Shown here in pieces: positions 14,945 through 47,928 of a DNA stretch of 57,187 nucleotides. This DNA is from Deltaproteobacteria bacterium CG11_big_fil_rev_8_21_14_0_20_47_16 (GTDB taxonomy: Bacteria > UBA10199 > GCA-002796325 > 1-14-0-20-47-16). The position numbers and the translations under genes were made by a program. The first letter of the stretch is position 1; the number at the start of each line of letters is the position of its first letter. The notes beneath the pieces are model-generated. The model was not told the origin of the DNA and did not search any database. It saw nothing but the letters and a program-made list of their open reading frames with translations. The stretch is taken from NCBI GenBank assembly GCA_002796325.1, contig PCXA01000009.1:1-57187 (forward strand), written 5' to 3'.

Positions 14945-15097
14945 ACAGCCGATTGCTCTACCGCTGAGCTATCGCGGAATCGTAAAGCGGCGGCGTGCGT
15001 ACTAGAATCATTTCTGTGTGTCAATATACCGCTTGCAGATTGCGTCTTTTCCTTATAACGGCATCCTGCTCACGCAAACTTAACTAAGGAGACTGTA

Positions 15098-15271: not shown

Positions 15272-15272
15272 T

Positions 15273-15833: not shown

Positions 15834-15882
15834 GATTTTGACGCAAATTGTCACAAGTTTTTGCGGTTTGGTTAATTTACTG

Positions 15883-15911
15883 TTGACGACAAAGGACCGT
15901 ATTTTTATACG
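15883..15911 (+). promoter_or_regulatory. sigma-70-like promoter of the regulator/antiterminator pair
   Basis: TTGACG (15883-15888) and TATACG (15906-15911) are separated by exactly 17 bases, 50 bases downstream of the Nudix stop. Transcription from about 15918 would yield a short leader ending at the ATG at 15943. Confidence 0.5.
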
Positions 15912-15942
15912 CGTTCAGCTTTTGAACATGGTGGGAGAGCAC

Positions 15943-16497
15943 ATGTCGCAACAGTTGGCTGTACAAGACAAATTGCTGCCAAGCGAAGTAACCGTTTTAG
16001 AAACGCTGGCCTCTAAAGATGTCCAATGGACACAGCGAGAATTGGCCCACCACACTGGCTATTCTATCGGGCTGATCAATACTATCCTCAAAAAACTATC
16101 CAGAACGGGCTACATCAAAATTGCCAATGTCAATAAACGCCGCTTGCAATATCTGCTAACCCCACAAGGGTTTGTCGCAACATCCAAGACTGCATGCAAA
16201 TACATCCTGCGCATTTTCAGAGACTATCGATGTCTGTATGAACAAGTTTCGATCTTTTTTAAGGATCTCTACGAAGAAGGTTACCGCGATCTTCATGTTA
16301 GCTGCGACGACGTTGAGTTATGCGAACTGATCCAAGTGGTAATCAAAGATGTGAATGTTGCGTCGGGAATAACGTTTCACCCAGCCGAAGCCAAAGGCAT
16401 TCCGGTTGTGCGACTGAAGGGTGCAGCTGTTACCAAGGCGGGCCCTATCTTGGATATGGCTGTTCAGTCACAGTCATATGAAGGGGGCGTCCAATGA
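15943..16497 (+). CDS. winged-helix transcriptional regulator (MarR-like)
   Basis: This 184-residue protein has a winged helix-turn-helix at about residues 12-80 ('TQRELAHHTGYSIGLINTIL' as helix-turn-helix; 'GYIKIANVNKRRLQYLLTPQ' as wing). A C-terminal domain of about 100 residues follows, which has a 'DLHVSCDDVELCELIQVVI' segment and a Rossmann-like strand order. The ATG at 15943 is chosen because GGGAG lies seven bases upstream; the frame continues further left without a good site. It overlaps the NusG-like gene by ATGA. The pair precedes a polysaccharide operon, so it probably controls the antiterminator or the operon. The inducing ligand is unknown. Confidence 0.75.
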   Translation: MSQQLAVQDKLLPSEVTVLETLASKDVQWTQRELAHHTGYSIGLINTILKKLSRTGYIKIANVNKRRLQYLLTPQGFVATSKTACKYILRIFRDYRCLYEQVSIFFKDLYEEGYRDLHVSCDDVELCELIQVVIKDVNVASGITFHPAEAKGIPVVRLKGAAVTKAGPILDMAVQSQSYEGGVQ

Positions 16498-16979
16498 ATG
16501 CATGGTACGTCATCCAAACCAAGCCGCAAAAGGAACAGGTTGTTCTTTCTCAGCTCAAGCAAGCTGGTTATGAAACTTTGTTTCCGATTCTAAAAAATTG
16601 TTTTTCAACAAGCGCACTCTTTCCATCCTATTTATTTGTTCGCCTTACAGCGGGCAGCGCCGCTGATTATCGATTGGTGCAATACACGCGCGGCGTGGTG
16701 CGGCTCTTGGGTACACAAAGCAACGGTCCAACAGCTGTTCCCGAAAATGTCATGACATTGTTGCGCCAGAGGACAGATTCACAAGGTGTGATTGTGCAAA
16801 AACTATTTAAGAAAGCCGGGGAAATGGTACTTGTGCAGCGCGGTCTTCTTAAAGATTTTGTGGGCATTCTGGAAAAGCCAGCGGATACGACTGGCCGGCT
16901 GCAGGTGTTGTTTAAATTGTTTAATCAGCCTTTACGGGCAGTACTAACGATGAGAGATGTCGCGCCACTCGCATGTTAA
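16494..16979 (+). CDS. specialised NusG paralogue (RfaH-like antiterminator)
   Basis: This 161-residue protein begins with an NGN domain (about 1-95: 'WYVIQTKPQKEQVVLSQLKQ', 'LFPSYLFVRL', 'RGVVRLLG') and ends with a KOW domain (about 105-155: 'GEMVLVQRG', 'FVGILEK'). It is the length of RfaH and shorter than most housekeeping NusG proteins. RfaH-type paralogues bind RNA polymerase at an ops element in the non-template strand and suppress pausing and Rho termination over long surface-polysaccharide operons. Here a perfect ops sequence lies 58 bases after the stop codon, ahead of a 31.5-kb operon. Start by ATGA coupling to the regulator. The antitermination role is inferred from family and context. 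Confidence 0.88.
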   Translation: MNAWYVIQTKPQKEQVVLSQLKQAGYETLFPILKNCFSTSALFPSYLFVRLTAGSAADYRLVQYTRGVVRLLGTQSNGPTAVPENVMTLLRQRTDSQGVIVQKLFKKAGEMVLVQRGLLKDFVGILEKPADTTGRLQVLFKLFNQPLRAVLTMRDVAPLAC

Positions 16980-17008
16980 GTGGTATTTAAATTTTTGAAA
17001 AATATAGT

Positions 17009-17032
17009 GTTTTGCTCGAGAAAGCGCAAAAC
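17009..17032 (+). promoter_or_regulatory. leader hairpin just upstream of ops
   Basis: GTTTTGC (17009-17015) and GCAAAAC (17026-17032) form a perfect 7-bp stem with a 10-base loop, five bases before the ops element. No U-run follows, so it does not look like an intrinsic terminator. It could be a pause hairpin or a recognition structure for the NusG-like protein. Confidence 0.5.
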
Positions 17033-17037
17033 ATAAG

Positions 17038-17049
17038 GGCGGTAGCCTG
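17038..17049 (+). promoter_or_regulatory. ops element (RfaH recruitment site)
   Basis: GGCGGTAGCCTG fits the enterobacterial ops/JUMPstart core GGCGGTAGnnTG at every defined position. It is in the untranslated leader, on the transcribed strand, 19 bases before the first ATG of the operon and just downstream of an RfaH-like gene. In known systems RNA polymerase pauses here and RfaH binds the exposed non-template strand. Confidence 0.85.
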
Positions 17050-17068
17050 TCTAAAATATAAGGATACT

Positions 17069-17572
17069 ATGTCATTGGTTGAATCAAAAATTTTATCACT
17101 TGAAGCACTCAAAGAACGCTTGGTTCCGCGCACAGGCACACTTGTTCATTGTCATGGCTGTTTTGACTTCTTGCATGTGGGGCATATGCATCACTTTGAA
17201 TTTGCAAAAAGTTTGGGCGATACATTGTTGGTATCATTAAACCATGACAACTTTTTTCCAGACAAGGGTGAGGGTCGACCCTTTTTCACGCATGAGCTGC
17301 GGGCGAGAGCTTTGGCTTATTTGCAAGTGGTGGATTATGTCTTGGTGTATGCAGGGTTCTTGCCGGATCAAATTTTTCAAACGTTGAAGCCTGATATCTA
17401 TGTAAAGGGCATTGAATATCATCCTGAACGATATCCAAAGCCAATTCCAGAAGAAGCGCTCATAGCGCCTCATGGTGGCAAAGTGGTTTATGGACCAGAA
17501 GACTGCATCTTTTCGTCGTCGAAAATAATCAACAACCTCAAACAAAGTTTTGCAAAGGAGAATAACACATGA
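17069..17572 (+). CDS. nucleotidyltransferase, RfaE/HldE C-terminal-domain type
   Basis: This 167-residue protein of the cytidylyltransferase fold has the 'GCFDFLHVGHMHHFE' motif (HxGH) and 'YVKGIEYHPE', and ends with 'SSSKIINNLK', matching the ISSS/STT end motif of the family. It would transfer a nucleotide to a sugar 1-phosphate or a polyol phosphate, as in ADP-heptose or CDP-glycerol synthesis. The ATG at 17069 follows AAGG; the longer frame from 17012 would run through the hairpin and ops element and is rejected. It overlaps the cupin gene by 4 bases, and a PfkB kinase follows, giving a split HldE-like pair. Confidence 0.8.
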   Translation: MSLVESKILSLEALKERLVPRTGTLVHCHGCFDFLHVGHMHHFEFAKSLGDTLLVSLNHDNFFPDKGEGRPFFTHELRARALAYLQVVDYVLVYAGFLPDQIFQTLKPDIYVKGIEYHPERYPKPIPEEALIAPHGGKVVYGPEDCIFSSSKIINNLKQSFAKENNT

Positions 17573-17952
17573 AGCTGATCAACAAGGAAACAGTCCGCAA
17601 GTTGTCACGCGGTGATGTAAAGAAGGTAGAACGTTCTTGGGGGCATGAGTTATGGATTGTCAATAAGCCCGAGTATTGCGGTAAAATTTTGTTTTTCAAA
17701 AAGGGCATGCGTTGCTCGTTGCACTTCCATCTTAAAAAAGATGAAACCTTCTTCCTTCAAAATGGCCGCCTCAAGGTGAGACTGCGCTATCAGGATGGTA
17801 TCGACGACATCATTGAAATGGTGCCCGGCGATTCGATGCATATTCCACAAGGTTTGATGCATCAGATGGAAGGGTTGGAAGACAGCGAACTATTTGAATT
17901 CAGCACCGAGCATTTTGATGAAGATGCATTTCGGGTTGAAAAGGGGTCCTGA
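17569..17952 (+). CDS. single-domain cupin protein
   Basis: This 127-residue protein is one cupin barrel. Motif 1 is 'CSLHFHLKKDETFFLQNGRL' and motif 2 is 'PGDSMHIPQGLMHQME', giving the His/His/Glu/His metal set. Small sugar-cupins act as sugar isomerases or epimerases (mannose-6-phosphate isomerase type) or as binding proteins. It lies between a nucleotidyltransferase and a PfkB kinase in one coupled set, so it may act on the same sugar phosphate. It resembles the C-terminal cupin of the NeuB-like protein further downstream. The exact reaction is unknown. Confidence 0.75.
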   Translation: MKLINKETVRKLSRGDVKKVERSWGHELWIVNKPEYCGKILFFKKGMRCSLHFHLKKDETFFLQNGRLKVRLRYQDGIDDIIEMVPGDSMHIPQGLMHQMEGLEDSELFEFSTEHFDEDAFRVEKGS

Positions 17953-17954
17953 TT

Positions 17955-18998
17955 ATGACGGCGTTTCAAACAAAAGAAGTCTGCGACAAAATAAGCCAAG
18001 CGGGCATCGAGCAAAGCAATATCGTGGCCGCGTTAGATTTGTTTCCCAAAAAGAAGATCTTGTTGGTGGGTGATTTAATCATCGACATCTATACCGAATG
18101 TACGGCCATTGGTAAAACAGCCAAGACCCCTACACTATCGGTTAAGCGCGGTTCTTCTAAACAATACTGGGGCGGATCCTCTTTGATCTGCAACAACTTA
18201 TTGGCAATGAATGGCGAAGTGACGTTTGTTGCTGTGACTGGCGACGACTGGGGATATGACTACTTCAGTCAGCGCAAACAACCTGGCTTTCAAGGTAAAT
18301 TTTTCAAGGATTCTAGTCGTCCAACCACGATTAAGGAACGCTTGTGGGTGGATGGCTATAAATTGTTACAGGTAGATACTGTTGAAAATCATGATATCTC
18401 GCCACAGCTTCAAGAAGAAATCTTCGGATTCATTGCGGCAGAAATTGAACGTCATGATGTCTTGCTAGTAGCCGACAATCGCCACGGCATGATGCCAAGC
18501 GCTCAAATTCAGCGTTTGAAAGCGTTGTGCAAAAAAGTGGGCAAGCCCATGGTGGTTGATACCCAAGTGAGCAGCCGTTGGGGCAATTTGGAAGAATACG
18601 CCGACGCATCTATTATCTGTGTAAACGAAACAGAAGCCCGATTTTTCTTGCGCGATGAACGTGCGCCAAAAGAAGAGTTGTTGGCACGCCTTGTCGAAAT
18701 GTTGCGCCCAGAGCGGCTGTTGGTGAAGTTGAAACATAAGGGTGTGATTGGTTGGGACCGTACTCAAGGAATCTTTAGCTTTCCAGCAGTTCCTGTGGCG
18801 CCAGTAGATCCCATTGGTGCGGGAGACGCTTTTTTAAGCGCAGCGACCTTGTCGTTCCATCCCGACGTTAACCTTATGACAAGCATGTTCTTGGCCAGCT
18901 GTTCTGGTGCAATTGCCGTGACCAAGATGGGAACCGATCCAAGTACATTTGATGAAATTCGTGATATGGCTTTGGGAATTATTGACAGCTGCGCTTAA
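17955..18998 (+). CDS. PfkB-family sugar kinase (RfaE/HldE N-terminal-domain type)
   Basis: This 347-residue ribokinase-fold protein has 'KILLVGDLIIDIYTEC' (about residue 34), 'YWGGSSLICNNLLAMNG' (substrate-binding Gly-Gly) and the ATP/catalytic motif 'DPIGAGDAFLSAATL' near residue 280, with the catalytic Asp in GAGD. It would phosphorylate a sugar phosphate at the anomeric or another hydroxyl, as HldE does for heptose 7-phosphate. Together with the nucleotidyltransferase at 17069 it forms a two-protein version of HldE. It is spaced 2 bases from the cupin gene. The actual sugar is not known. Confidence 0.82.
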   Translation: MTAFQTKEVCDKISQAGIEQSNIVAALDLFPKKKILLVGDLIIDIYTECTAIGKTAKTPTLSVKRGSSKQYWGGSSLICNNLLAMNGEVTFVAVTGDDWGYDYFSQRKQPGFQGKFFKDSSRPTTIKERLWVDGYKLLQVDTVENHDISPQLQEEIFGFIAAEIERHDVLLVADNRHGMMPSAQIQRLKALCKKVGKPMVVDTQVSSRWGNLEEYADASIICVNETEARFFLRDERAPKEELLARLVEMLRPERLLVKLKHKGVIGWDRTQGIFSFPAVPVAPVDPIGAGDAFLSAATLSFHPDVNLMTSMFLASCSGAIAVTKMGTDPSTFDEIRDMALGIIDSCA

Positions 18999-19032
18999 TG
19001 CTGCAGCAACAGACGAAGAGAGTGGTGAATAT

Positions 19033-19968
19033 ATGAAAAAGGATGTGTTGGTAACAGGTGGAGCAGGGTTTATTGGCTCCAATTTGGTACGACTTTTATT
19101 GAGTCGTGGATATGCTGTTCGAGTTCTCGATAATTTGACGACAGGTTATCAAGAAAATCTCGAAGGTTTGCAGGGTGTCGAGTTTGTTAAAGGCGACATT
19201 ATGGACGCACCGCTTTTACAAAAGATGGTGCAGGGAACAAGTGTGGTGTTTCACATGGCTGCCGCAGTTGGCAATGTCCGCTCATTAGAAGACCCTCACT
19301 TCGATGCCAATATCAATGTTATGGGAACGCTCAACGTGTTGGAAGCAGCACGTAAGACCAATGTTCGTAAAATTGTTTTCTCTTCATCTGCAGCCATTTT
19401 TGGTGAGCCCGTTGAAATGCCAATCACAGAAGATCATCCTGTGAATCCAGATTCACCATATGGTGTGAGTAAGCTTGCTGCCGAGAAATACTGTCTTTGT
19501 TATAATCGTCTTTATGGAATGGAAAATGTCTGTCTGCGCTACTTCAACGTATACGGGCAACATCAACGTTATGATGCATACGGCAATGTGATTCCTATCT
19601 TTTTGACCAAGCTTCGCCGCGGTGAAGCTCTGACTGTGTATGGAGATGGTGAACAGACACGCGATTTTATTAATGTGAAAGATATCGCTATGGCGAATCT
19701 GTTGTCTGCTGAAACCCCAGGCGCCAGCGGCCCAATTAATATCGGCACAGGTTCTGCTATTACAGTCAACACGTTGACGCAGTTAATTCAAAAGTTGGGT
19801 AAGGATGGCACTGTTGCCTATAAGCCCGCCCGTGCAGGCGAAGTGCTTCATAGTCGTGCAAATATTAGCAAGGCGCAGTCCATGCTCAACTTTCAGCCAT
19901 CTGTTCATTTGGCGGAAGGCCTCAAAATACATGCTGAATGGTTGAATACTCTGGAGTCCGCATCGTGA
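19033..19968 (+). CDS. NAD-dependent sugar epimerase/dehydratase (extended SDR)
   Basis: This 311-residue protein has the nucleotide-binding 'VTGGAGFIGSNLVR' at residue 6, 'FSSSAAIFG' (catalytic Ser region) and 'YGVSKLAAEKYC' (YxxxK), followed by the 'LRYFNVYGQHQ' segment of UDP-glucose 4-epimerase-like enzymes. It should epimerise or dehydrate an NDP-sugar in the cytosol. The ATG at 19033 is chosen because the glycine-rich loop then sits at the normal position; a longer frame from 18949 would overlap the kinase. It is translationally coupled to the 2-epimerase by TGA/GTG overlap. Confidence 0.85.
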   Translation: MKKDVLVTGGAGFIGSNLVRLLLSRGYAVRVLDNLTTGYQENLEGLQGVEFVKGDIMDAPLLQKMVQGTSVVFHMAAAVGNVRSLEDPHFDANINVMGTLNVLEAARKTNVRKIVFSSSAAIFGEPVEMPITEDHPVNPDSPYGVSKLAAEKYCLCYNRLYGMENVCLRYFNVYGQHQRYDAYGNVIPIFLTKLRRGEALTVYGDGEQTRDFINVKDIAMANLLSAETPGASGPINIGTGSAITVNTLTQLIQKLGKDGTVAYKPARAGEVLHSRANISKAQSMLNFQPSVHLAEGLKIHAEWLNTLESAS

Positions 19969-21053
19969 AAATAATGACCATTTTGGGTACGCGGCCCGAG
20001 ATTATTCGTCTAAGTACCATTATACCCAAGCTTGATAAAGCCGCGGAGCATGTTCTTGTTCATACAGGGCAAAACTATGCGGCCTGCTTAAATGATATTT
20101 TCTTTACGGATCTTAAGTTGCGGCGCCCAGACCATTGTTTGGATATTCGTGAAGCAACGGCCATGCAGCAAGTTGGGCGTATTTTGGTAGAAGTTGAACG
20201 ATTGATGCAGCAGGAAAAGCCAGATCGCCTATTAATTTTGGGCGATACTAATAGTGGCTTATCATCGATCGTTGCTAACCGCATGGGAATTCCTGTGTAT
20301 CATATGGAAGCGGGGAACCGTTGTTACGATGATCGCGTGCCAGAGGAAGTGAACCGCCGCATTATTGATCACTGCAGTAGCGTGCTTATGCCCTACACAT
20401 ATCGCAGCAAGGAAAATTTAGTGCGTGAAGGGATTGAAAGAGAACGTATGTTTGTGGTGGGAAACCCCATCTACGAAGTCATGCAGCACTACGATGCAGA
20501 TGTCTGTAGCAGTACCGTCAAAGAACGTATGGGTCTTTCTAAGAAGGGCTACTTTTTGGTAACCATCCATCGTGCTGAGGGAGTTGATGTTCCTCATAAT
20601 TTGGAACGACTGGTAGAGGCCCTGAAAAAAGTACACGAAAAATATAAGATGCCAGTGGTTTGTAGTTTTCACCCACGCACCAAAAATAAAATGGAAGCCA
20701 ATGGCATTGATTGGAAGTCGAGCGGCATAACTTTTGTGGAACCTCTTTCCTTCTTCGACTTTATTAATCTAGAGCGTGATGCATTTTGTGCTCTGTCGGA
20801 TAGTGGTACGGTACAAGAAGAATGCTGTATTATGAAGGTGCCAAACGTTACTTTACGTGAGGTAACAGAGCGTCCTGAAACCGTAGAGTGTGGCAGCAAT
20901 ATTTTAAGTGGATATGATCCCCAAACTATTTTGAATACCATTGAGCTTGTGGTTGGTCGGGATTCAAAATGGCAACCTCCAAAGGAATATTTGGAAGCGC
21001 AGGTTTCTAATCAAGTGCTCAATATCATTTTGGGTTATTCTGGGAAAAATTAA
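19965..21053 (+). CDS. wecB: UDP-N-acetylglucosamine 2-epimerase family (WecB-like)
   Basis: This protein of about 362 residues starts at a GTG overlapping the previous stop, with GGAG at 19952-19955. Family marks are 'ILGTRPEIIRLS', 'VHTGQNYAACLNDIFF', 'LGDTNSGLSSIVANRMGIPVYHMEAG' (kept short here), 'VPEEVNRRIIDH', 'HRAEGVD' and 'SDSGTVQEE'. Non-hydrolysing members convert UDP-GlcNAc to UDP-ManNAc; hydrolysing relatives feed sialic-type acids. Placed directly before NeuA and NeuB-like genes, it may supply the hexosamine for a nonulosonic acid, or the last step of UDP-FucNAc synthesis with the 44928/45811 enzymes. Which applies is open. Confidence 0.85.
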   Translation: MKIMTILGTRPEIIRLSTIIPKLDKAAEHVLVHTGQNYAACLNDIFFTDLKLRRPDHCLDIREATAMQQVGRILVEVERLMQQEKPDRLLILGDTNSGLSSIVANRMGIPVYHMEAGNRCYDDRVPEEVNRRIIDHCSSVLMPYTYRSKENLVREGIERERMFVVGNPIYEVMQHYDADVCSSTVKERMGLSKKGYFLVTIHRAEGVDVPHNLERLVEALKKVHEKYKMPVVCSFHPRTKNKMEANGIDWKSSGITFVEPLSFFDFINLERDAFCALSDSGTVQEECCIMKVPNVTLREVTERPETVECGSNILSGYDPQTILNTIELVVGRDSKWQPPKEYLEAQVSNQVLNIILGYSGKN

Positions 21054-21784
21054 TGACACTTCAATCTCAAATTGTTGGAATTATTCCAGCTCGTGCAGGT
21101 TCAAAGTCGATCAAGAACAAGAATCTGAAAATGTTGGGTGGAAAACCCATGATTGCCTACACGATTGAGGCTGCAAAACAGTCGCGTCATATTGGTCGTG
21201 TCATTGTGACAACGGAAGACGAGGGTATTGCTTCAGTTGCCAAAGAATATGGCGCAGAAGTCCCATTCTTACGACCAAAGGAATTGGCCGAAGACCACGT
21301 AACTGACTTGCCTGTATTTCAGCATGTGTTGCATGAGTTGGCACAGCAGGAAAATTATTTTCCAAAGATCGTGGTGCAGTTGCGTCCCACCAGCCCATTG
21401 CGTCGTACAATTGATATTGATGGTGCAATTGAATTGTTTTTACAGTCCCCTGAAGTGGATTGTGTGCGTACGGTGACAGCAGCACTTCAGCATCCGCTTA
21501 AAATGTGGCGGATTGAAGATGGAAGTTTGGTGCCATTTATTGCTCCATCACTATATGGGATTGAAGAAGCATATAATCAACCACGACAAAAGTTACCCAA
21601 GGCGTTTGTACAGAATGGCGCGGTGGATGTAATTCGTGCCGAAACAATTTTAGAAAAGAATAGCATGTCAGGAAGTGTGATGAAGGCATTTGTAATGGAT
21701 GAAGACATTTCAGTGAATGTAGACAGCCCAATTGATTTTGAATTGGCAGAACTTGCACTATCTCAAACTAGGAGGAAGTTATGA
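21053..21784 (+). CDS. neuA: acylneuraminate cytidylyltransferase (NeuA-like)
   Basis: This 243-residue protein has the 'IIPARAGSKSIKNKNLKML' P-loop-like start, 'VVQLRPTSPLRR' and 'QNGAVDVIRAETIL', hallmarks of CMP-nonulosonic acid synthetases. The enzyme activates a nine-carbon sialic-type acid with CTP in the cytosol. The start shares one base with the preceding stop, and the end overlaps the oxidoreductase by ATGA, so it is tightly coupled in the operon. The NeuB-like synthase is two genes downstream. The acid could be neuraminic, legionaminic or a relative; the sequence does not decide. Confidence 0.87.
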   Translation: MTLQSQIVGIIPARAGSKSIKNKNLKMLGGKPMIAYTIEAAKQSRHIGRVIVTTEDEGIASVAKEYGAEVPFLRPKELAEDHVTDLPVFQHVLHELAQQENYFPKIVVQLRPTSPLRRTIDIDGAIELFLQSPEVDCVRTVTAALQHPLKMWRIEDGSLVPFIAPSLYGIEEAYNQPRQKLPKAFVQNGAVDVIRAETILEKNSMSGSVMKAFVMDEDISVNVDSPIDFELAELALSQTRRKL

Positions 21785-22875
21785 AAGTTAAGGTGTATGG
21801 CGCAGGATCCATTGGAAACCACTTGGCACATGCTGCTCGTTGTATGGGTTGGGATGTTACAATTTGTGATCCAGATAGCGGTGCATTAAAGCGTACTAAA
21901 GAACAGATCTATCCACAGCGTTACGGTGCGTGGGATGAGGGAATTAAATTGTGTGAAAACAAAGACGCCCCAAAGGGTGGCTTTGATATGATCTTTTTGG
22001 GCACACCTCCAGATATCCGTTTTCGTTTGGCACGTGAATGCTTGGAAGAGCGTCCACGGTTGATGCAGTTGGAAAAGCCGTTATGCGGACCGAACTTGAA
22101 AGATGCTCAGGAATTATTTGAAGATGTTGCAAAGACAGATACTCTAATGTGCGTGGGATATGACCATGTTCTAGGTCGTGCAACTGAGATGGCGGAAAAT
22201 CTTTGGTTAGAAGGTCGTTGGGGTAATGTTGAAACCTTAGACGTTGAATTCAGAGAGCATTGGGGAGGAATTTTTTCTGCCCATCCATGGCTGACAGGTC
22301 CCCAAGAAACCTATTTGGGTCATTGGCAACGTGGTGGTGGTGCGAGCGGCGAACATTCGCATGCAACCAACATGTGGCAGCACTTTGCACACCGCCTAAA
22401 TGCAGGCCGCATTATTGAAGTAACCGCACAAATGGAAATGGTAACTGTGGGCGATGCCCAGTACGACAAATTGTGTGCAATGACGGTTAAGACTGAAAAG
22501 GGTCTTTTGGGTCGCGTGGTTCAAGATGTTGTAACCAAGCCACCTCGTAAGTGGGCACGCATTCAATGTGAAGGTGGTTATATTGAGTGGCAATGTGGTG
22601 GTCGTCCAGATGGGGATGTTGTTCGCTATCAGCGTGATGGTTATGCGTGTGGCGAGACGTTTGTTCCCAAGAAACGACCTGATGATTTTATTTTGGAAAT
22701 GCAGCATTTTGATAAGTTGTTGAAAAAAGAAACCACACTCGATCAGTCAGCTATTTCGTTGCAGCGCGGATTAGATACCGCTCTTGTAATTGCTGCTGCA
22801 CACAAATCCTTCCAAGAGAAGAGAACAGTGACAATCGATTATTCTAAGGGATACAGGCTAGAAGCCATCCGTTAA
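21781..22875 (+). CDS. Gfo/Idh/MocA-family oxidoreductase
   Basis: This 364-residue protein has an N-terminal Rossmann fold starting 'VKVYGAGSIGNHLAHA' and the diagnostic 'MQLEKPLCGP' (EKP, with the catalytic Lys). A 'GGGASGEHSHATNMWQHF' stretch contributes the active-site His. Members reduce or oxidise sugars and inositols with NAD(P). It lies between NeuA-like and NeuB-like genes, so it probably modifies the nonulosonic acid precursor or a nucleotide sugar. The start overlaps the NeuA stop, behind GGAGGAAGTT. Confidence 0.82.
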   Translation: MKVKVYGAGSIGNHLAHAARCMGWDVTICDPDSGALKRTKEQIYPQRYGAWDEGIKLCENKDAPKGGFDMIFLGTPPDIRFRLARECLEERPRLMQLEKPLCGPNLKDAQELFEDVAKTDTLMCVGYDHVLGRATEMAENLWLEGRWGNVETLDVEFREHWGGIFSAHPWLTGPQETYLGHWQRGGGASGEHSHATNMWQHFAHRLNAGRIIEVTAQMEMVTVGDAQYDKLCAMTVKTEKGLLGRVVQDVVTKPPRKWARIQCEGGYIEWQCGGRPDGDVVRYQRDGYACGETFVPKKRPDDFILEMQHFDKLLKKETTLDQSAISLQRGLDTALVIAAAHKSFQEKRTVTIDYSKGYRLEAIR

Positions 22876-22901
22876 GTGATGCGTATAAAAGGAGATGTAT
22901 T

Positions 22902-24428
22902 ATGGTAACTAATAAAAAGTACGACTTTAAAAACCTCTTCATTCTGGAAATGGCCAATAACCATCAGGGTGATGTAGAGCACGGACTTCGAATAATTCGA
23001 GAAATGTCTAAATGTGCTCGTGCCGCCGATGTGCGGGCTGCGGTAAAGTTGCAATTTCGGGAGTTGGATACCTTTATCCATCCTGACTGCATCAACGATA
23101 CTTCAAATAAGCATGTTTCTCGCTTTTTATCGACGCGGCTGAAGAAAGAGGAGTTTGCCAAATTGGTTGAGGAAACGCGTGCTTTGGGGTTGGTTACAAT
23201 GTGTACCCCGTTTGATGAGCCGTCAGTGGATCTGATCAATGAGATGGACATTGAAATCATTAAGATCGGAAGCCCTTCTGCAACAGATTGGCCCTTGCTT
23301 GAGAAGGTAGCCAGTGCAGGTAAGCCAGTTATCTGTTCTACCGGAGGCTTGGATAGTAAGCAGATTGATAAATTGGTGAGTTTCTTTACTCACCGTGGTG
23401 TTGATTTTGCGATAATGCACTGTGTGGGAATTTATCCAACACAACGCAAGGATCTTCAGCTTAACCAAATTCAAATCATGAAGAATCGATATCCTGATAT
23501 TTTAATCGGGTTCTCATCGCATGAAGACCCTGCTGATTTTGGCCCCATCCGCATTGCGTACGCTAATGGCGCGCGCTTGTTTGAGCGTCACGTTGGTGTG
23601 CCAACAGATAAGTATAAATTGAATGCATATTCATCTAATCCCGAGCAAGTGGCCAACTGGTTTTCAGCATATCGTGAAGCAATTGAAATGTGCGGCTCAG
23701 AGAGCCGGCCACCTGTGCCTCATGCTGAGGAAGAGTCCCTAAATACATTGATGCGTGGTGTGTATGTGCGCTCATCAATTAAGAAGGGTGATCCAATTAA
23801 GCGTGAAGACGTATTTTTTGCAATTCCTTGGAAACCAGGTGCCATGAAGAGCGGCGCTTGGAAGGATGGGCTTGTGGCGGATGCTGATTATTCTCCGAAT
23901 ACAGCGCTGTCCGAAACTTTGGCCAAACATGCGCCAACCAAAAAGGAAATTATTTATTCCGTAATCCATGAAGTAAAGGGAATGCTCAATGCTGCACGTA
24001 TCCCGACAGGTCGCGAATTTTCAATTGAAATGTCCCATCACTACGGTGTGGAGCGATTTTACGAAGTAGGTTGCATTTTAATTGAAGTGATTAATCGTAG
24101 TTATTGTAAGAAGTTGGTTATTCAGCTTCCCAATCAGTGGCACCCCTATCACTATCACAAGAAGAAGGAAGAAACCTTCCAGGTTCTGTGGGGTGAATTG
24201 GAAATCGAAATTGAAGGTAATAAGAAGATTCTGTACCCAGGTGATACTCAGTTGGTACAGCAAGGTGTTTGGCATAAATTCCGAACCAATACAGGGGTAA
24301 TCTTTGAAGAGATTTCAACCACAGCATATAATGATGATTCATTCTACGAAGACAAACAGATCAGTATGATGGATCGTTCCGAGCGTAAAACAAAGCTAGA
24401 AAATTGGGGGAGACACCAAATTGACTAA
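22902..24428 (+). CDS. NeuB-type nonulosonic acid synthase with SAF and C-terminal cupin
   Basis: This 508-residue protein has three parts. First is the NeuB TIM barrel (about 10-270: 'EMANNHQGDVEHG', 'CTPFDEPSVDL', 'IKIGSPSATDWPLL', 'ICSTGGLDSKQI', 'GFSSHE'). Next is an SAF/antifreeze-like domain (about 283-345: 'MRGVYVRSSIKKGDPI'). Last is an extra cupin (about 385-490: 'HPYHYHKKKEETFQVLWG', 'PGDTQLVQQGVWHKF'). The barrel condenses a hexosamine with phosphoenolpyruvate to give a nine-carbon acid. Ordinary NeuB proteins are about 345 residues, so the cupin is a fusion. AAGGAGATG precedes the ATG. The exact acid product is unknown. Confidence 0.88.
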   Translation: MVTNKKYDFKNLFILEMANNHQGDVEHGLRIIREMSKCARAADVRAAVKLQFRELDTFIHPDCINDTSNKHVSRFLSTRLKKEEFAKLVEETRALGLVTMCTPFDEPSVDLINEMDIEIIKIGSPSATDWPLLEKVASAGKPVICSTGGLDSKQIDKLVSFFTHRGVDFAIMHCVGIYPTQRKDLQLNQIQIMKNRYPDILIGFSSHEDPADFGPIRIAYANGARLFERHVGVPTDKYKLNAYSSNPEQVANWFSAYREAIEMCGSESRPPVPHAEEESLNTLMRGVYVRSSIKKGDPIKREDVFFAIPWKPGAMKSGAWKDGLVADADYSPNTALSETLAKHAPTKKEIIYSVIHEVKGMLNAARIPTGREFSIEMSHHYGVERFYEVGCILIEVINRSYCKKLVIQLPNQWHPYHYHKKKEETFQVLWGELEIEIEGNKKILYPGDTQLVQQGVWHKFRTNTGVIFEEISTTAYNDDSFYEDKQISMMDRSERKTKLENWGRHQID

Positions 24429-26022
24429 ACGCGTTCTGTTTGGCATTGCCGCGATCCTCTGTATTGGATTTGCATTGAGGCTCTACCAATTGACTGCGGA
24501 TTTGCCTTACGTTGATTTGGGTTCCAGTGGCGCCTTCCTGTTGGATGAGGGCGTTTATCAGGCCAGCGCAGCGCATAAGGTACTATTCGGTTCCTGGCAA
24601 ATGCCAGGAATTGTCTATTATGGCTGGACAGTACGTGCCTACAATCTCTGGCTCTACCCCTTCTTTAAAATCTTTGGCGTTACTTTGTTTGCAGCGCGCC
24701 TATCTTGTATGTCCGCATTTATGTTGGGCCTTGGCATTTTGATGATGGGACTGCGTCGATATGTAGCACCAATGGTGCTACTTGTTTTTGGGCTACTGTC
24801 TGCAACAAACTATCTTTTAGTGATGTGGTCAAAGATGCCGTTGCCATACACAGTTGTTTTATTGCCTGTTAGTGGACTGTTACTAACCACGGTATTTGCG
24901 ATTGCTCGAAAGTCAGTGTTGTATGCGGCTTTGGCGGGTTTTTTTGCTTTTTTATGTGTGTCTGTTAAAGAACCGGCACTCTTGTTCTTTCCAATTTCAG
25001 CGGCAGCCATAATGTTTGGGTTTAGAATTTATCACGGTGCACGCGTTCGTGATATGCTGCTAAATAAGGTGTTGTGGACATACATCGCGTCATTCGTGAT
25101 CTTATTTGCACTTTATCAAGTTTATTATTTGGCACCTGTCGCTAATGAGTGGTGGAATGATTCGGCACAGCAGGCGCGCATTGTTGCCAATGATGCTGTT
25201 AAAGGCTTGACCAGCCCTGCTCTCCAGAGTGGGCGTCAACATTATGGAGCGTTGTCCGCCCTAGAAAAGTTTTTCCTTAAATTTTTGGGAATGAAATATA
25301 TTGCCTGGGTTTGGGTGTTGGCATTTTTGAGTTTGGGGTTAATTGCAATTGGTCGTAAACAGATTGTTGCTCAGTTAAAAAACAATGTTGGATCCCTAGT
25401 GTCCCTTTACATGTTTCTTTGGGCGGTCATTATGATCCCCGGTTTGGTTATTACCCGTATGCGTGGAGGGTTGGCAATTCATTGGAGCCCACTATATCTG
25501 ACACCAATCATATATTTTGCTGCGTTGGGGTTTTATCAGTTATGGCATTACACCAAAGGTGCACAATGGTTAAAGGTCACACGTGGGATTGCACTTGTGC
25601 TTCTTTTGGGGGCGGTAACGACAGATTTAAATCAGTACCATCATTGGCTTAAGCAACTTCCAGAATATAGCAAAATCAATGAAGTGGCAGACCAAATTGC
25701 TGATGCGGTACAAGTAGATAATGCTTCTCCAACAATTTTGATGTTTGATGCGCCTATTGTGGCATTACGGCATCCAGAGGTAAATGTAATTGCGCTTCGT
25801 GATTTTCAGGCAAAATTTATTAGCAATGTATATCCAGAATGGAAGCCGCAGTATGTTGTGGTTCAAGAAGCTGCACTTCGCCCACAAAATTCAGAAGCGG
25901 TTGTAAAAACAATTCGAGATCAAGGTTTCACACTGAAATCCATAGGAAGCTATCCTGTAGGAGTTTTTGATGGTTCCGATGTTAGTTTGACATTATATAA
26001 ACTCAAAAAGAAGACTTTATAA
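24421..26022 (+). CDS. GT-C membrane glycosyltransferase (GT39/PMT-like)
   Basis: This 533-residue polytopic protein starts at a TTG (GGGGGAG at 24405-24411) overlapping the NeuB stop. The N-terminal helix is followed by the lumenal 'LLDEGVYQ' acidic pair characteristic of the PMT/ArnT group. About ten further hydrophobic segments and a soluble C-terminal domain (from about residue 430) follow. Such enzymes transfer sugars from polyprenyl-phosphate donors on the periplasmic side. It may add a side residue to the polysaccharide. The donor and acceptor are unknown. Confidence 0.78.
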   Translation: MTKRVLFGIAAILCIGFALRLYQLTADLPYVDLGSSGAFLLDEGVYQASAAHKVLFGSWQMPGIVYYGWTVRAYNLWLYPFFKIFGVTLFAARLSCMSAFMLGLGILMMGLRRYVAPMVLLVFGLLSATNYLLVMWSKMPLPYTVVLLPVSGLLLTTVFAIARKSVLYAALAGFFAFLCVSVKEPALLFFPISAAAIMFGFRIYHGARVRDMLLNKVLWTYIASFVILFALYQVYYLAPVANEWWNDSAQQARIVANDAVKGLTSPALQSGRQHYGALSALEKFFLKFLGMKYIAWVWVLAFLSLGLIAIGRKQIVAQLKNNVGSLVSLYMFLWAVIMIPGLVITRMRGGLAIHWSPLYLTPIIYFAALGFYQLWHYTKGAQWLKVTRGIALVLLLGAVTTDLNQYHHWLKQLPEYSKINEVADQIADAVQVDNASPTILMFDAPIVALRHPEVNVIALRDFQAKFISNVYPEWKPQYVVVQEAALRPQNSEAVVKTIRDQGFTLKSIGSYPVGVFDGSDVSLTLYKLKKKTL

Positions 26023-26038
26023 GCAAAGCAAAATAATT

Positions 26039-26992
26039 ATGAGCCAACTTAAATGTATTGTTTGTTCAAAGGATGAGCCGCTGCAGCTAAGGCACCAGTG
26101 TAGTCACCGGCCAGCAAAGGGATATTCCTTATATTATTGTTCCAAATGCGGTTGTGGTCGAACAGATCCATTTCCAGAGCAAGAGGAAGTAAATAAGCTG
26201 TATTCTACGACCACATATCGTGCTGATCAGGGAATTCGCTTTATTAAGCCGATGGAAGTATTGGTACGACAATTTCGCCGTCAAAGATGGCAACGCATTC
26301 GTCAGTATATTCCAAAGGGATCGCTTTTAGATGTTGGATGTGCGGGAGGGTACTTTTTAGATTTCTTACGCGAAAAGGGTTGGAAGGTTGCTGGTGTTGA
26401 AGTGAATGAGGCGATGGCTCGCCATGCGCGTGAGCATTACGGCATTGACGTGCGATCAGAAGGTCTTGAAAAGGCGGCATTTCCTTCTGAGTCATTTGAT
26501 GTTGTGACAATTTATCATGTTTTAGAGCACATTCCGAATCCGGATCAAACGCTACAAGAATGTTACCGGATTTTACGACCAGGAGGTCTTTTGGTGATTG
26601 CGGTGCCAAATTCAGAAAGTTGGCAGGCCAGTGCTACAGGTTCTAAGTGGTTTCATTTAGACGTGCCACACCATCTTCATCATTTTTCAGCACGAGGTTT
26701 GAAAGCGCTTGTGAATCAAAATGGATTTAACACAAAGCGCATTCGACATTTTTCATTAGAGCAGAATCCAATTGGTTGGCTACAGAGCTGTTTAAATCGT
26801 ATGGGTCTGGAATATAATATGTTGTACGATTTTTTAAAGACAAAGCAATTGCGACGCTCATTTTCATGGGCGCTTATTCCAACTATTCTTTCATTACCAA
26901 TTACCATACCAGTATCTATTATAGCGGCTGGTTTAGAGGCGTCCGCCAAGGGGGGCGGCACCATTGAACTATACGCGCTAAAGCAGAAGTAA
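26039..26992 (+). CDS. class I SAM methyltransferase with N-terminal zinc ribbon
   Basis: This 317-residue protein begins with a zinc ribbon ('CIVCSKDE', 'YYCSKCGCGRTDPFP'). The SAM-binding motif 'LLDVGCAGGYFLDFL' is near residue 100, followed by 'FDVVTIYHVLEHIPNP' and 'LRPGGLLVIAVPN'. The hydrophobic C-terminus could bind the membrane. It is a methyltransferase of the type common in surface-polysaccharide and lipid loci, probably acting on a sugar or lipid-linked chain. Another methyltransferase of the same layout is encoded on the opposite strand at 29621-30535. Confidence 0.82.
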   Translation: MSQLKCIVCSKDEPLQLRHQCSHRPAKGYSLYYCSKCGCGRTDPFPEQEEVNKLYSTTTYRADQGIRFIKPMEVLVRQFRRQRWQRIRQYIPKGSLLDVGCAGGYFLDFLREKGWKVAGVEVNEAMARHAREHYGIDVRSEGLEKAAFPSESFDVVTIYHVLEHIPNPDQTLQECYRILRPGGLLVIAVPNSESWQASATGSKWFHLDVPHHLHHFSARGLKALVNQNGFNTKRIRHFSLEQNPIGWLQSCLNRMGLEYNMLYDFLKTKQLRRSFSWALIPTILSLPITIPVSIIAAGLEASAKGGGTIELYALKQK

Positions 26993-26995
26993 CTT

Positions 26996-28327
26996 ATGAA
27001 AAGAAAACTACATATCATTTTTGTGATTGCACTATTGGTGCGCATTTTGATGCTCTTTCATCTCGGAGACACTCTCCATGTGGATGAAGGGCAAATGGTT
27101 AATCTCAAGAACTGGGTCGCGGGCCACGGTCTATCAGATTCCGTTACCGGGCCTGACGGCAGTGTTGTTTATATGCCAACTGCACGGGACTTACCCGGGC
27201 ACGGGATTTTGATCATTGCCACGTGGTATTTAACAGGCACCCAAAGTCTGGTTCCCATGCAGTGGATTCAAATTATCTTAGATGCCCTCATGATTTTTTT
27301 AGTGTTTGGCATTGGAAGACGACTCTTTTCAGACAAAGTGGGTTTGATTGCAGCAGCGCTCTATGCCTTGTATCTACCTGAAGTGTATTTGGCAGTTTTA
27401 GTTCGTCGTGATGTATGGGTTTCTTTTGGCATGATCACATCGTTCTACTGTTGTGTGAGATTTACTTCAGATAAGCGTTGGCGCTGGTGGTTGATAGCAT
27501 CAGTAGTTTTAAGTGCGACAGCCTACTTCCGCTCCACCGTCATTTTATACCCATTTGCTTTGGGCCTTGGTTTGTTGGGTTTTGTATCCTTAAAGCGTGC
27601 GGCAGTGGCAACAGCCATTATGACAGTCATTATTATACTAGGACTTTTACCGTGGGGCATTCGCAACTATATTGTATTTGATGGAAGGTTTTTGCTAACC
27701 GAATTGAATTTTGCTCAATCAATGTGGGAAGGTTTTGGTCAATTCCCCAATCCTGTTGGCGCGATTAACAATGACGTTCTTACAGAAAAGCGCATGCGGG
27801 AAGATGGCTATACAGGACGGTTTGCAACATTTGAGTACGAAGATTTTCTAAAACCAAAGGTGTTTCAAACAATTAAGGAAAACCCCAAATGGTATTTAGG
27901 AACCATCCTCCAAAGGATACCTCGTGCACTTGTAGTCAACCGTGTTCATTGGGGAATTTTTGAAAAAGAAGGGTTGGATTACCACACCTTCCATATAAAG
28001 GATGGCGAGCAAAAGGGTCCGAACGTGAGTGTAACGAGCTACGGCTTAAAAATGTTGAAACTGAACCCCGGATTTATATTTACTAAATTTTTAGATGTTC
28101 TTATTTTTGGGATGGCAATTTTTGGATTTTGGAAAGCATGTCGTCGACATTTTTCACAGTCAATTCTGCTTGGCTTGGTTCCGTTTTATTTCATTGCGAC
28201 GCTAATACCGATTCGCATCGAAGGTCGTTATATGGTGCCCACTCACTGGGCGCTTTTAATTTTTATGGCAATTGCAGTAAACTACATATCAGATCGTTTG
28301 CGCCATAGAAACACGCCATGGGCATAA
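26996..28327 (+). CDS. GT-C membrane glycosyltransferase (GT39-like)
   Basis: This 443-residue polytopic membrane protein has the lumenal 'TLHVDEGQMVNL' acidic motif after the first helix, a 'PTARDLPGHG' loop and about eleven predicted helices, all typical of the PMT/ArnT superfamily. It follows the methyltransferase gene by 3 bases and overlaps the ligase-like gene by 10 bases. It is a second candidate for transferring a sugar from a polyprenyl-phosphate donor in the periplasm. It shares fold but little sequence with the 24421 protein. Confidence 0.75.
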   Translation: MKRKLHIIFVIALLVRILMLFHLGDTLHVDEGQMVNLKNWVAGHGLSDSVTGPDGSVVYMPTARDLPGHGILIIATWYLTGTQSLVPMQWIQIILDALMIFLVFGIGRRLFSDKVGLIAAALYALYLPEVYLAVLVRRDVWVSFGMITSFYCCVRFTSDKRWRWWLIASVVLSATAYFRSTVILYPFALGLGLLGFVSLKRAAVATAIMTVIIILGLLPWGIRNYIVFDGRFLLTELNFAQSMWEGFGQFPNPVGAINNDVLTEKRMREDGYTGRFATFEYEDFLKPKVFQTIKENPKWYLGTILQRIPRALVVNRVHWGIFEKEGLDYHTFHIKDGEQKGPNVSVTSYGLKMLKLNPGFIFTKFLDVLIFGMAIFGFWKACRRHFSQSILLGLVPFYFIATLIPIRIEGRYMVPTHWALLIFMAIAVNYISDRLRHRNTPWA

Positions 28328-29712
28328 CCCTTACAATTATATTTTCTGTCTTATTTTTATGTCTCTGGCTGTTTTCTGCCAAGATGGCATTTCTTTTTGT
28401 TGTTATTGCTCGAACCACTGTTGATGCCGTTGGCCCTTCGTTCCCACTTATTGGGATCAAGGGTGGTTTTAATACAATTGAGCTTCAAGAGGTTTCAGCC
28501 GTTGCGTTGTTGCTGTTGGAGTTAGTTACTCTTGTAGATTTGCTATGGGTAAGAAGAATAAAATTTCCTGATTATGCGTGGGTTGGCATGATATTTATAA
28601 CACTACTCTTTGTTGGTGGTGCACGTACACATTCCAATCTCAGCGGGTATTCCGAATGCTTACGTGCTGTTACCTGGGTGATGATTATTGTCATTCTGCC
28701 GCAACTCATTAACACGTGGAAGGATGTTCAACAGTTTATAGTAGCAGGGTGTATTGCGATTTTGATCCCAATCCTGGGTGCATTCTATTCAATTATTACT
28801 GGATATAAGGTTGGCGCTTACTATGGTCAGATGATGGGTGGTCTTGCAGGGTTGAAGGATATTCAAGGATGGCATCAAAGCCCACCAAATTTAGGTGTAC
28901 TGGTGGCATCATTGACACCCTTTTTGCTGTATCAAATTTCTGTGATCAAGAAATGGCCGCTTGAACGACTGCTGTACGTACTACTATTATTTGTTTCGAC
29001 CTATGTCGTATACAGAACTTATAACCGCATTAGCTTGTTAGCCCTCGCAGTTCAATGCGCTGTATTTGCACTCATTATTAAGCCAACAAAGAAAAAACCT
29101 TTGCTGATTGCTGCAGGGATATTTGTTGTGTGGCTCTTGGCATTCAAAATGGATGTCATTACAATTAAAAAGCAGGATTTTAATTTTGCAGAAATGAAGG
29201 GCGAATCTTCAATTTTTCAACGAATGACGTTTTGGGTTATTGTGACCGAAGGTTGGATTAAGAGCGGTTGGTCCCAAAGGTTGCTTGGTCATGGTATTCA
29301 TGCCGTCAAGCAGCTGACTTGGGGAAAATCTGCACATAATGACTTTTTCAACATGTTATATGATGCAGGTCTGGTGCCGTTGATGATCTATCTTGGTTTT
29401 TTGGGAATGATTACACGCCGCATGTGGAAGTTGCGCAAGCGGTGCTATAATCAGCTGCCAGTGCGTGCGCTTGCTTGCGCAGGAATTTCTATTTTGATAA
29501 GCTCAATGTTGATCGCTAACACGATGCGCTTTCTATATAGCTTGTCGTGGATGATCTACATTGCCATATTTATTTCATTGTGTCTGGGTGCTTGTAATAT
29601 ATTAGAGAAAAACGGACGTATTAATATCGAAGAAGAGAAAGACGTCGTAATGCCCTCAATGGCAGAGAAGAGTACTGGAAAAGCATGTCGTAGTACCGCA
29701 GACGCTGTTTAA
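28318..29712 (+). CDS. O-antigen ligase / polymerase-like membrane protein (Wzy/WaaL)
   Basis: This 464-residue protein has about twelve membrane helices. A large periplasmic loop between late helices contains 'LLGHGIHAVKQLTWGKSAHNDFFNMLYDAG', cited in parts: the 'GHG' and 'HNDFFNMLYDAG' elements are typical of the Wzy_C domain in O-antigen ligases and polymerases. It would polymerise repeat units or ligate chains on the periplasmic face. Whether polymerase or ligase cannot be told from sequence alone. Its last 92 bases overlap an opposite-strand methyltransferase gene. Confidence 0.8.
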   Translation: MGITLTIIFSVLFLCLWLFSAKMAFLFVVIARTTVDAVGPSFPLIGIKGGFNTIELQEVSAVALLLLELVTLVDLLWVRRIKFPDYAWVGMIFITLLFVGGARTHSNLSGYSECLRAVTWVMIIVILPQLINTWKDVQQFIVAGCIAILIPILGAFYSIITGYKVGAYYGQMMGGLAGLKDIQGWHQSPPNLGVLVASLTPFLLYQISVIKKWPLERLLYVLLLFVSTYVVYRTYNRISLLALAVQCAVFALIIKPTKKKPLLIAAGIFVVWLLAFKMDVITIKKQDFNFAEMKGESSIFQRMTFWVIVTEGWIKSGWSQRLLGHGIHAVKQLTWGKSAHNDFFNMLYDAGLVPLMIYLGFLGMITRRMWKLRKRCYNQLPVRALACAGISILISSMLIANTMRFLYSLSWMIYIAIFISLCLGACNILEKNGRINIEEEKDVVMPSMAEKSTGKACRSTADAV

Positions 29713-30535
29713 TTTTCTTTACTGGTAATGACTGTATTTTTGTAGGTTGCTTGTGTTCTCCCCGATCAGTTTTGGCCATTAGGCGTAGATGAGGGAATCG
29801 GTCGTCAATTTTGATAATTGAAAAACCTGCCTTTTCAACAATGTTGCTCAATGTAATTTTATTAAACGTAAAAAGGTGAGGATAGGAAAAGAATTCTTCT
29901 AATCGTCCATTTGGTTTGAATAGATTTGGAACCTCAAGAATAAGAGTGCCATTAGCCGCCAATCTTTCTTTAGCAAGTTTCAAAGTTTCAAGCGGATTGG
30001 CTACGTGTTCAAGAACATGGACTAAAAAAATGGTATCAAACATCAATGTTGAAAAAGAATCCTTGGTAAATAGCCCAATTTCAATTTGATGGCCTTGTGC
30101 TTTGGCAAACTGAGCAAAGTTTTCATTGGGTTCTACTCCAAAGGTATTGAAACCATTTCCTTTTGCGAGATTAAGCAAATTGCCTGTGGATGCACCAATA
30201 TCGAGTATGTTGCCTGTAATTGGCGTGCTTTTATTCATAATTTCAGAATAGAAATTCCAGATGCGACGCGATTTGATATTTGTATTGCGCATTGCTTTTG
30301 CTGAAGGTGAGTTGATTGACGCGTCATCGCGATTTAAAACGGATTTATAGAATTGCCCGTAGTATTCTGAAAGGTCCCTTTCTGTTGGTTGATTTGGTTG
30401 AAAAACCAATGTGCAGTTGGGGCAAATGGAGTGGCAACTGTAATATGTAGAATTGCGAGATTCTATTAAAATCTCGCAATTTGTGCATGTACAAAGAGGG
30501 CAAACTGGTATATGTGTTTTCGCCATTTTCTGCAT
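29621..30535 (-). CDS. zinc-ribbon SAM methyltransferase, inverted within the operon
   Basis: This 304-residue protein has an N-terminal zinc ribbon ('CPLCTCTNCE', 'CHSICPNCTLVF'). The SAM motif 'NILDIGASTGNLL' is near residue 108, followed by 'FDTIFLVHVLEHVANP' and 'LAANGTLILEVPN'. It is full length and intact. It is the only gene on the minus strand within the 31.5-kb polysaccharide run, overlapping the ligase 3' end by 92 bases. Its start lies close to the start of the plus-strand gene at 30574. It shares its layout with the 26039 methyltransferase. Start could be 30535 or the in-frame Met at 30526. Confidence 0.8.
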   Translation of the reverse strand: MQKMAKTHIPVCPLCTCTNCEILIESRNSTYYSCHSICPNCTLVFQPNQPTERDLSEYYGQFYKSVLNRDDASINSPSAKAMRNTNIKSRRIWNFYSEIMNKSTPITGNILDIGASTGNLLNLAKGNGFNTFGVEPNENFAQFAKAQGHQIEIGLFTKDSFSTLMFDTIFLVHVLEHVANPLETLKLAKERLAANGTLILEVPNLFKPNGRLEEFFSYPHLFTFNKITLSNIVEKAGFSIIKIDDRFPHLRLMAKTDRGEHKQPTKIQSLPVKKIKQRLRYYDMLFQYSSLPLRALRRLSLLRY

Positions 30536-30573
30536 ATAAATTGCGGACTAAGCCTATGTCTGGAGGAAGTCAA

Positions 30574-32490: not shown

Positions 32491-33055
32491 ATTCTATCAA
32501 CTATATCTTCATGATACTGCACAGCTTCTGGAAGCAGTGTCGGCAACTACCAAAAATTTCGATAATTTGGAGTTATCCGAAGCGTTTCAGTCGACTTTTC
32601 TGTTGTTTAATGAGTGTCGACAAAGGGGTAACAAAATTTTCTATATTGGAAATGGTGGGAGCTCAACAATTGCCAGCCATATTGCGACCGATGCTTGGAA
32701 ATGTGCTGGCTTGAAGGCGCAGACATTCAATGATGCTGCAGGGTTGACTTGTATCGGGAATGATGATGGTTTTGAGCATGTTTTTGCTGCTCCGTTGCGT
32801 ATCCTTGGAAATCCGGGGGATATTCTTGTGGCGATTAGCAGTTCTGGTGCCTCTCCAGACATATTGAAGGCAGTTGAGGTGGCTCAGGAAAAGAAAATTG
32901 CAGTAATCACGTATTCTGGTTTTGATGAAAAGAATCCGCTGCGGTTGATGGGAGTAATTAATTTTTATGTACCATCTCGGCGATATGGACACGTTGAAAT
33001 TGCACATTTAGCGTTGTGTCACGCAATTTTAGACCGTTTTGCATTGGAGCAGTGA
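32483..33055 (+). CDS. SIS-domain sugar isomerase (GmhA-like)
   Basis: This 190-residue SIS protein has 'IGNGGSSTIASHIATDAWK' (phosphosugar-binding loop) and 'ISSSGASPDIL', matching sedoheptulose-7-phosphate isomerases of the GmhA/DiaA group. It would make a heptose 7-phosphate or bind a ketose phosphate in the cytosol. It overlaps the preceding gene by 8 bases and is followed two bases later by a radical SAM gene. A second SIS protein lies at 47929. With kinases and nucleotidyltransferases in the same operon, a heptose pathway is plausible. Confidence 0.82.
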   Translation: MDKFYQLYLHDTAQLLEAVSATTKNFDNLELSEAFQSTFLLFNECRQRGNKIFYIGNGGSSTIASHIATDAWKCAGLKAQTFNDAAGLTCIGNDDGFEHVFAAPLRILGNPGDILVAISSSGASPDILKAVEVAQEKKIAVITYSGFDEKNPLRLMGVINFYVPSRRYGHVEIAHLALCHAILDRFALEQ

Positions 33056-33056
33056 T

Positions 33057-34145: not shown

Positions 34146-34148
34146 ACT

Positions 34149-35678: not shown

Positions 35679-35727
35679 TAGCCAGAATTGGATTGACAAA
35701 CTAACCATTAATGAAAGGTAGTGTTTT

Positions 35728-36504: not shown

Positions 36505-36514
36505 GGAGCAACTT

Positions 36515-37579: not shown

Positions 37580-37583
37580 TCTC

Positions 37584-38303: not shown

Positions 38304-38318
38304 ATGAGGAATAAACCG

Positions 38319-46908: not shown

Positions 46909-46917
46909 GAAAGTAAT

Positions 46918-47910: not shown

Positions 47911-47928
47911 CCAAGGCAGAGAGCGAAT

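Follow-up and report, generated by a model that had tools for sequence, protein, structure and literature searches.

We found that in the window (the whole stretch of 57,187 nucleotides analyzed here) the gene of a short, RfaH-type paralogue of NusG is followed by a hairpin and a perfect ops element at the head of a polysaccharide cluster, that the paralogue carries two key residues for base-specific reading of ops, and that this arrangement is conserved in many relatives across the phylum. On the basis of these sequence comparisons, we consider it probable that the locus specifies a cis-encoded, ops-dependent antiterminator of the RfaH type, which would be loaded where polymerase pauses just past the gene that encodes it, and which may not be autoinhibited. 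The genome containing the window comprises 1.95 Mb in 20 contigs, and the phylum was sampled with 46 genomes of one class. The features of the window are collected in Table 1.

Table 1. Features around the ops element and in the polysaccharide cluster
Feature	Positions	Strand	Basis and remarks
Winged-helix regulator, MarR_EPS (TIGR04176) type	15943..16497	+	46.6 bits, E 2.9e-12, below the 88-bit cut-off
RfaH-type NusG paralogue (NGN + KOW)	16494..16979	+	161 aa; profile matches, alignment, AlphaFold, structure matches
9-bp stem-loop (GUGUUUUGC...GCGCAAAACAU in RNA)	17007..17034	+	3' arm ends 3 nt before ops
ops element GGCGGTAGCCTG	17038..17049	+	zero mismatches to GGCGGTAGNNTG
Shine-Dalgarno-like AAGGA	17060..17064	+	direct reading; precedes the first operon gene
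First operon gene, cytidylyltransferase-like (RfaE domain II type)	17069..17572	+	profile matches
First sense block: cupin, heptokinase-like, epimerase, WecB-like, PseF-like, NeuB, methyltransferase, PMT, Wzy-like	17569..29712	+	profile matches
Methyltransferase gene (SAM) breaking the operon	29621..30535	-	PF13489, 69.4 bits
Second sense block: SIS, radical-SAM, HldE-like, glycosyltransferases, flippase, WecG, epimerases, GHMP kinase	30481..48552	+	profile matches

Results

The ops element and the paralogue in the window

An earlier note on this DNA had reported a perfect ops element 58 bases after a short NusG paralogue, and this proved accurate: GGCGGTAGCCTG begins 58 nt past the paralogue stop codon, and its 3' end is separated by 19 nt from the ATG of the cytidylyltransferase-like gene. 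The scan for other copies in the genome, also proposed there, returned four occurrences of GGCGGTAGNNTG, compared to seven of the reversed control; thus, the element is not significant by genome count alone. Of the other three copies, one is inside dnaX, one crosses the end of sufC on its antisense strand, and one is antisense within an SDR gene; only one copy in this genome is extragenic. The note had held that many random ops-like sites would refute its reading; this condition was badly chosen, as chance copies do exist, yet they are intragenic. We regard the element as real by its position, not by its genome count.

Two genes of the NusG family are present in the genome, the paralogue and the housekeeping nusG. 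The housekeeping NusG was excluded as the identity of the paralogue; its gene is on a separate contig, and its residues 10 and 73 are Y and P. The Pfam NusG profile (PF02357) matches residues 3-89 of the paralogue at 54.5 bits. Among NCBIfam models, the top match is RfaH (TIGR01955) at 75.1 bits, under the equivalog cut-off of 144.5; the NusG model scores less (48.3 bits), and the UpxY model (NF033644; 49.0 bits, cut-off 100) and the LoaP model (NF033641; 44.6 bits, cut-off 125) likewise stay below their thresholds. A search of genome contigs with the paralogue protein yielded a single weak match, in Bacteroidota. In the tree, the phylum paralogues form one clade (support 100/99), separate from E. 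coli RfaH. We infer that these proteins are RfaH-like in function, while they score below the RfaH equivalog cut-off and lack the full set of autoinhibition contacts.

Residues and fold

It is known that K10, H20, R23 and R73 of E. coli RfaH touch ops directly (PMC5995543). Alignment of the paralogues to these contacts, another check put forward earlier, gave a divided answer. K10 and R73, the residues of base-specific reading, are present in 26/26 phylum paralogues and are missing from the housekeeping NusG. The T6 pocket (H20, R23, Q24) is not conserved: the window protein has Q20, Q23 and A24, and the relatives are variable; therefore, the mode of ops reading may differ. It should be noted that position 20 in the alignment of 26 paralogues is polar (Q, H or R) in 14/16 proteins that have a cis ops, compared to L or I in 7/10 that lack one (Fisher p 0.009, relatedness ignored); five of the ten paralogues without a cis ops belong to one clade (G038, G041-G044).

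The residues of autoinhibition follow another pattern. Neither E48 nor F130 occurs in any of the 26 phylum paralogues, and F126 is absent from 25 of them. In the window protein, E48 is replaced by S and F130 by L, and R138 is kept, so that the set of contacts considered (E48-R138, F126, F130) is incomplete. The AlphaFold model of the paralogue (pLDDT 92) has a beta-barrel KOW; the input was a 17-row alignment in which NusG-like relatives came from viral contigs only, a bias to beta is possible, and the model is thus weak evidence against an alpha state. The top matches of the model among solved structures include recruited-state RfaH (8phk, 6c6s) and NusG.

Conservation of the pairing

The paralogue is present in 26/46 phylum genomes, at 33-46% identity. 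Of about 24 cases that could be assessed, 16 have a sense-strand ops (pattern GGCGGTAGC[CTG][TC]G) 47-244 nt (median about 78) after the paralogue stop codon; these 16 cis sites span nine families, and 0.003 are expected from the density of the motif. The same downstream stretches contain no antisense ops and no site of the reversed pattern. The cis sites vary at positions 10 and 11 only, and positions 1-9 and 12 are invariant; position 9 was unconstrained in the first scan, and it is still C in 16/16. At position 11 the only change is T to C, so that the Y-1/G+1 consensus pause (a pyrimidine, then G) is kept. Beyond the element, position 13 is Y in 16/16, position 14 is C in 14/16, and position 15 is Y in 15/16. 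The retention of the pairing in nine families is strong evidence for function, as judged from this footprint. The claim that a true ops is linked to a paralogue of the RfaH type outside the enterobacteria is thereby upheld, and it extends outside Pseudomonadota, since the whole phylum has only 46 genomes in the set used here.

Four assessable genomes bearing the paralogue (G038, G041, G043, G044) have no convincing ops, which indicates that the element is not obligatory. No perfect ops was found near 12 NusG paralogues encoded on plasmids of Alpha-, Beta- and Gammaproteobacteria or near 21 paralogues from viral contigs, in stretches of up to 3 kb; across whole plasmid records, ops is no commoner than the control. 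One of the viral-contig proteins (L112, positions 2968-3471 of IMGVR_UViG_3300014325_000049) has K10, H20, Q24 and R73, with no ops nearby.

The hairpin before ops

The stem-loop of the window has a minimum free energy of -11.3 kcal/mol (z -5.1). At 12/16 cis sites, roughly five or more contiguous pairs form a stem that ends 1-4 nt before ops; dinucleotide shuffles of these 16 sites gave on average 2.8 stems, with a maximum of 8 in 1000. As a comparison set we used 23 extracted ops copies, mostly from genomes without the paralogue and treated as chance; four of them have a stem, the same as in their own shuffles, i.e., there is no excess. Under other settings the excess at cis sites ranged from z 4.3 to z 6.9, and it weakens when the examined stretch is shifted upstream.

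Stem sequences are unrelated between families, and the loops differ. The JUMPstart model (RF01707) scores 18.2 bits in the window, below the threshold of 35, which none of the relatives reaches; three E. coli leaders score 55-60 bits. Thus, the shared feature is the layout, not the sequence, and the window has the layout of JUMPstart, with a short stem just 5' of ops. RNA polymerase is known to pause on ops at U11 (PMC11001881); with a pause at this position, about 13-15 nt would separate the end of the stem from the RNA 3' end, which would put the stem where the exit channel opens. By our own reasoning, the stem probably limits backtracking or lengthens the pause.

The winged-helix regulator and the polysaccharide cluster

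The gene of the winged-helix (wHTH) regulator and that of the paralogue overlap by 4 nt, which makes co-transcription probable. A promoter-like sequence (TTGACG-17-TATACG, positions 15882-15910) lies shortly 5' of the regulator gene and could be the start of the transcript. No terminator-like and no sense-strand promoter-like site was found in positions 15000-17600, and thus none between the regulator, rfaH and the first operon gene; a single transcript is the simplest interpretation. Behind ops there is a polysaccharide cluster, as had been described, with sense-strand gene runs at 17069-29712 and 30481-48552. The single operon of about 31.5 kb that had been proposed is interrupted by the minus-strand methyltransferase gene; therefore, the long operon is either split or read through antisense to that gene.

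Homologues of the regulator are associated with the paralogue: the gene is found in 16/26 genomes with the paralogue, compared to 1/20 without it (p 1e-4), and among the 16 other genomes with a homologue, it adjoins rfaH or ops in most. The gene order varies (wHTH-rfaH-ops, rfaH-ops-wHTH, or ops-wHTH apart), suggesting that wHTH, ops and operon travel as a unit, to which rfaH is usually joined. On Sulfitobacter and Marivivens plasmids (L099, L100), a MarR_EPS regulator stands divergently beside RfaH, so the association occurs in Rhodobacterales as well; this pairing either predates the studied phylum or was exchanged.

Remote ops sites

In three genomes, ops is found upstream of an operon-heading wHTH gene at some distance downstream of rfaH, namely 0.9 kb in G011, 7.3 kb in G042 and 9 kb in G014. 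G030 and G036 have ops at the head of a polysaccharide operon that is 65 kb off or on a different contig. G037 combines a cis ops with a second, remote one, placed about 24 nt 5' of the start codon of a wHTH gene that heads another operon (L221, C5:264000-282000; reverse-complement position 3145, with the ATG of the MarR_EPS-like wHTH gene at 3180 and a sugar operon), and by its sequence this genome would have a two-site RfaH regulon. Distant ops sites are thus mostly at the head of a wHTH gene or a polysaccharide operon, and those of the six genomes imply that the paralogue would also act in trans. In the genome of the window, the scan for ops gave no sign of a regulon unlinked to the gene, whereas G037, G036 and G030 have one by this measure. 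It should be noted that in G042 (L072, C26:62000-76000) the interval from rfaH to ops contains a phd/vapC-like toxin-antitoxin pair along with other genes; a Phd/YefM gene is found immediately 3' of RfaH on a Marinovum plasmid (L096).

The earlier interpretation of a cis-encoded RfaH system is, consequently, partly supported: the linked package of paralogue and ops stands, the linkage is not strictly cis, as the ops of some relatives is remote, and cis-encoded NusG paralogues had already been described (PMC7593976, PMC7819879, PMC13015549).

Discussion

Proposed mechanism and alternatives

The steps that we infer, i.e., binding, pausing, antitermination, loading in cis and lack of autoinhibition, could be arranged as follows. 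Polymerase would transcribe the wHTH regulator and rfaH, and next the short hairpin, and would pause on ops about 70 nt beyond the rfaH stop codon, with the ribosome that is finishing rfaH just behind. The exposed non-template ops hairpin, with G5 and T6 read by K10 and R73, would load RfaH on the polymerase; this RfaH may be freshly released by the trailing ribosome or may come from a pool, and the upstream RNA hairpin would probably restrict backtracking or extend the pause. RfaH would then remain on the polymerase, excluding NusG and Rho across the polysaccharide operon, so that the paralogue would be made from the same transcript that it then modifies. Such tight coupling of synthesis and target could stand in for autoinhibition as the source of specificity.

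Several alternatives have to be weighed against this model. The protein could be an autoinhibited RfaH like that of E. coli, acting in trans, with the adjacency of gene and site merely an economical gene order. The remote ops sites of G014, G011, G042, G030, G036 and G037 would agree with this, as would the fact that ops and K10/R73 are the same as in E. coli; nevertheless, we consider it unlikely, given the absence of E48 and F130 from all 26 paralogues and of F126 from all but one, the beta KOW of the AlphaFold model, the close linkage in 16 genomes, and the single extragenic ops in the genome of the window. Recruitment through the RNA hairpin, as for LoaP, with ops acting only as a downstream pause that gives time, appears somewhat more doubtful. 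LoaP is indeed recruited by a leader hairpin aided by a downstream pause (PMC12691694), and the hairpin described here is kept at a fixed spacing 5' of ops; however, its stems and loops differ by family, positions 1-9 and 12 of ops are invariant, far beyond the pause consensus, and the LoaP model score is far under its cut-off.

A further alternative takes the site for an ordinary consensus pause, serving to couple ribosome and RNA polymerase where the operon begins, with no reading by the paralogue; we consider this very improbable. While ops alone is a strong consensus pause (PMC5995543) and some relatives have no ops near the paralogue, the invariant C3, G4, G5, T6, A7, G8 and C9 are not needed by the pause consensus, ops co-occurs with a K10/R73 paralogue, and the NusG paralogues of plasmids and viral contigs have no such site nearby. 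A chance motif, to which the low number of genomic copies relative to the reversed control would point, is hardly credible at all, being refuted by the phylogenetic footprint (16 observed versus 0.003 expected). The cis-encoded, ops-dependent antiterminator thus appears to be the reading that these observations favor.

Comparison with known systems

NusG paralogues encoded in cis beside envelope operons have been described before (PMC7593976, PMC13015549, PMC7819879), and their recruitment has been stated to be unknown (PMC7593976). In the literature found, the coverage of which is incomplete, there was no report of a cis-encoded RfaH followed by ops. What appears to be new is the pairing of a cis-encoded paralogue with ops in proteins without the known autoinhibition residues. 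It has been proposed that residues for ops and for autoinhibition were gained together and late (PMC7593976), and that coupling of synthesis to target could take the place of autoinhibition in ancestral or beta-folded RfaH (Belogurov 2009, as related in PMC13015549 and PMC7819879). We tentatively suggest, as a possibility that we hold with less than even confidence, that in the studied phylum a constitutively active, beta-folded RfaH reads ops and is confined to its target by translation right behind the ops-paused polymerase, i.e., that ops is read without autoinhibition. If this is true, the phylum would represent a surviving intermediate in which ops recognition came before fold-switch autoinhibition, contrary to the coincident late gain (PMC7593976). 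The order of the two has so far been inferred from trees only; a set of proteins in which ops-reading residues are kept, autoinhibition residues are absent and a matching ops is mostly adjacent makes both the recruitment and the evolutionary order testable, and provides a living test case for the evolution of the RfaH switch. The retention of a stem before ops in a distant phylum, likewise, suggests a general role for the little-studied JUMPstart hairpin.

The system shares with E. coli RfaH and its ops/JUMPstart element (RF01707) the 12-nt ops, K10, R73, the NGN and KOW size, the polysaccharide targets and the small stem just 5' of ops. It differs in that the gene is directly before its own ops, E48 and F130 are absent, and the proteins form a separate monophyletic clade; the hairpin sequence is also different (18.2 bits versus the 35-bit threshold), and the stem is mostly 2-4 nt from ops, compared to a 5-bp stem at 1 nt in the E. 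coli JUMPstart. The monomorphic "betaRfaH" proteins (PMC13015549) are similar in their location beside long operons, a predicted beta KOW and missing autoinhibition contacts; however, the betaRfaH tested there were without key ops residues and ops-independent, whereas the phylum paralogues keep K10 and R73 and the ops of the window is perfect. As in Bacteroides UpxY, which heads a capsule operon, the gene of a NusG paralogue is at the head of an envelope-sugar operon; the leaders in which UpxY suppresses termination are located upstream of the gene encoding it (PMC7819879), and the UpxY model gives the window protein 49 bits versus the cut-off of 100. LoaP is likewise a cis-linked NusG paralogue with a leader hairpin, but it requires a specific UNCG RNA hairpin, whereas in the phylum neither loop nor stem is constant from family to family, and the hairpin is followed by a DNA ops.
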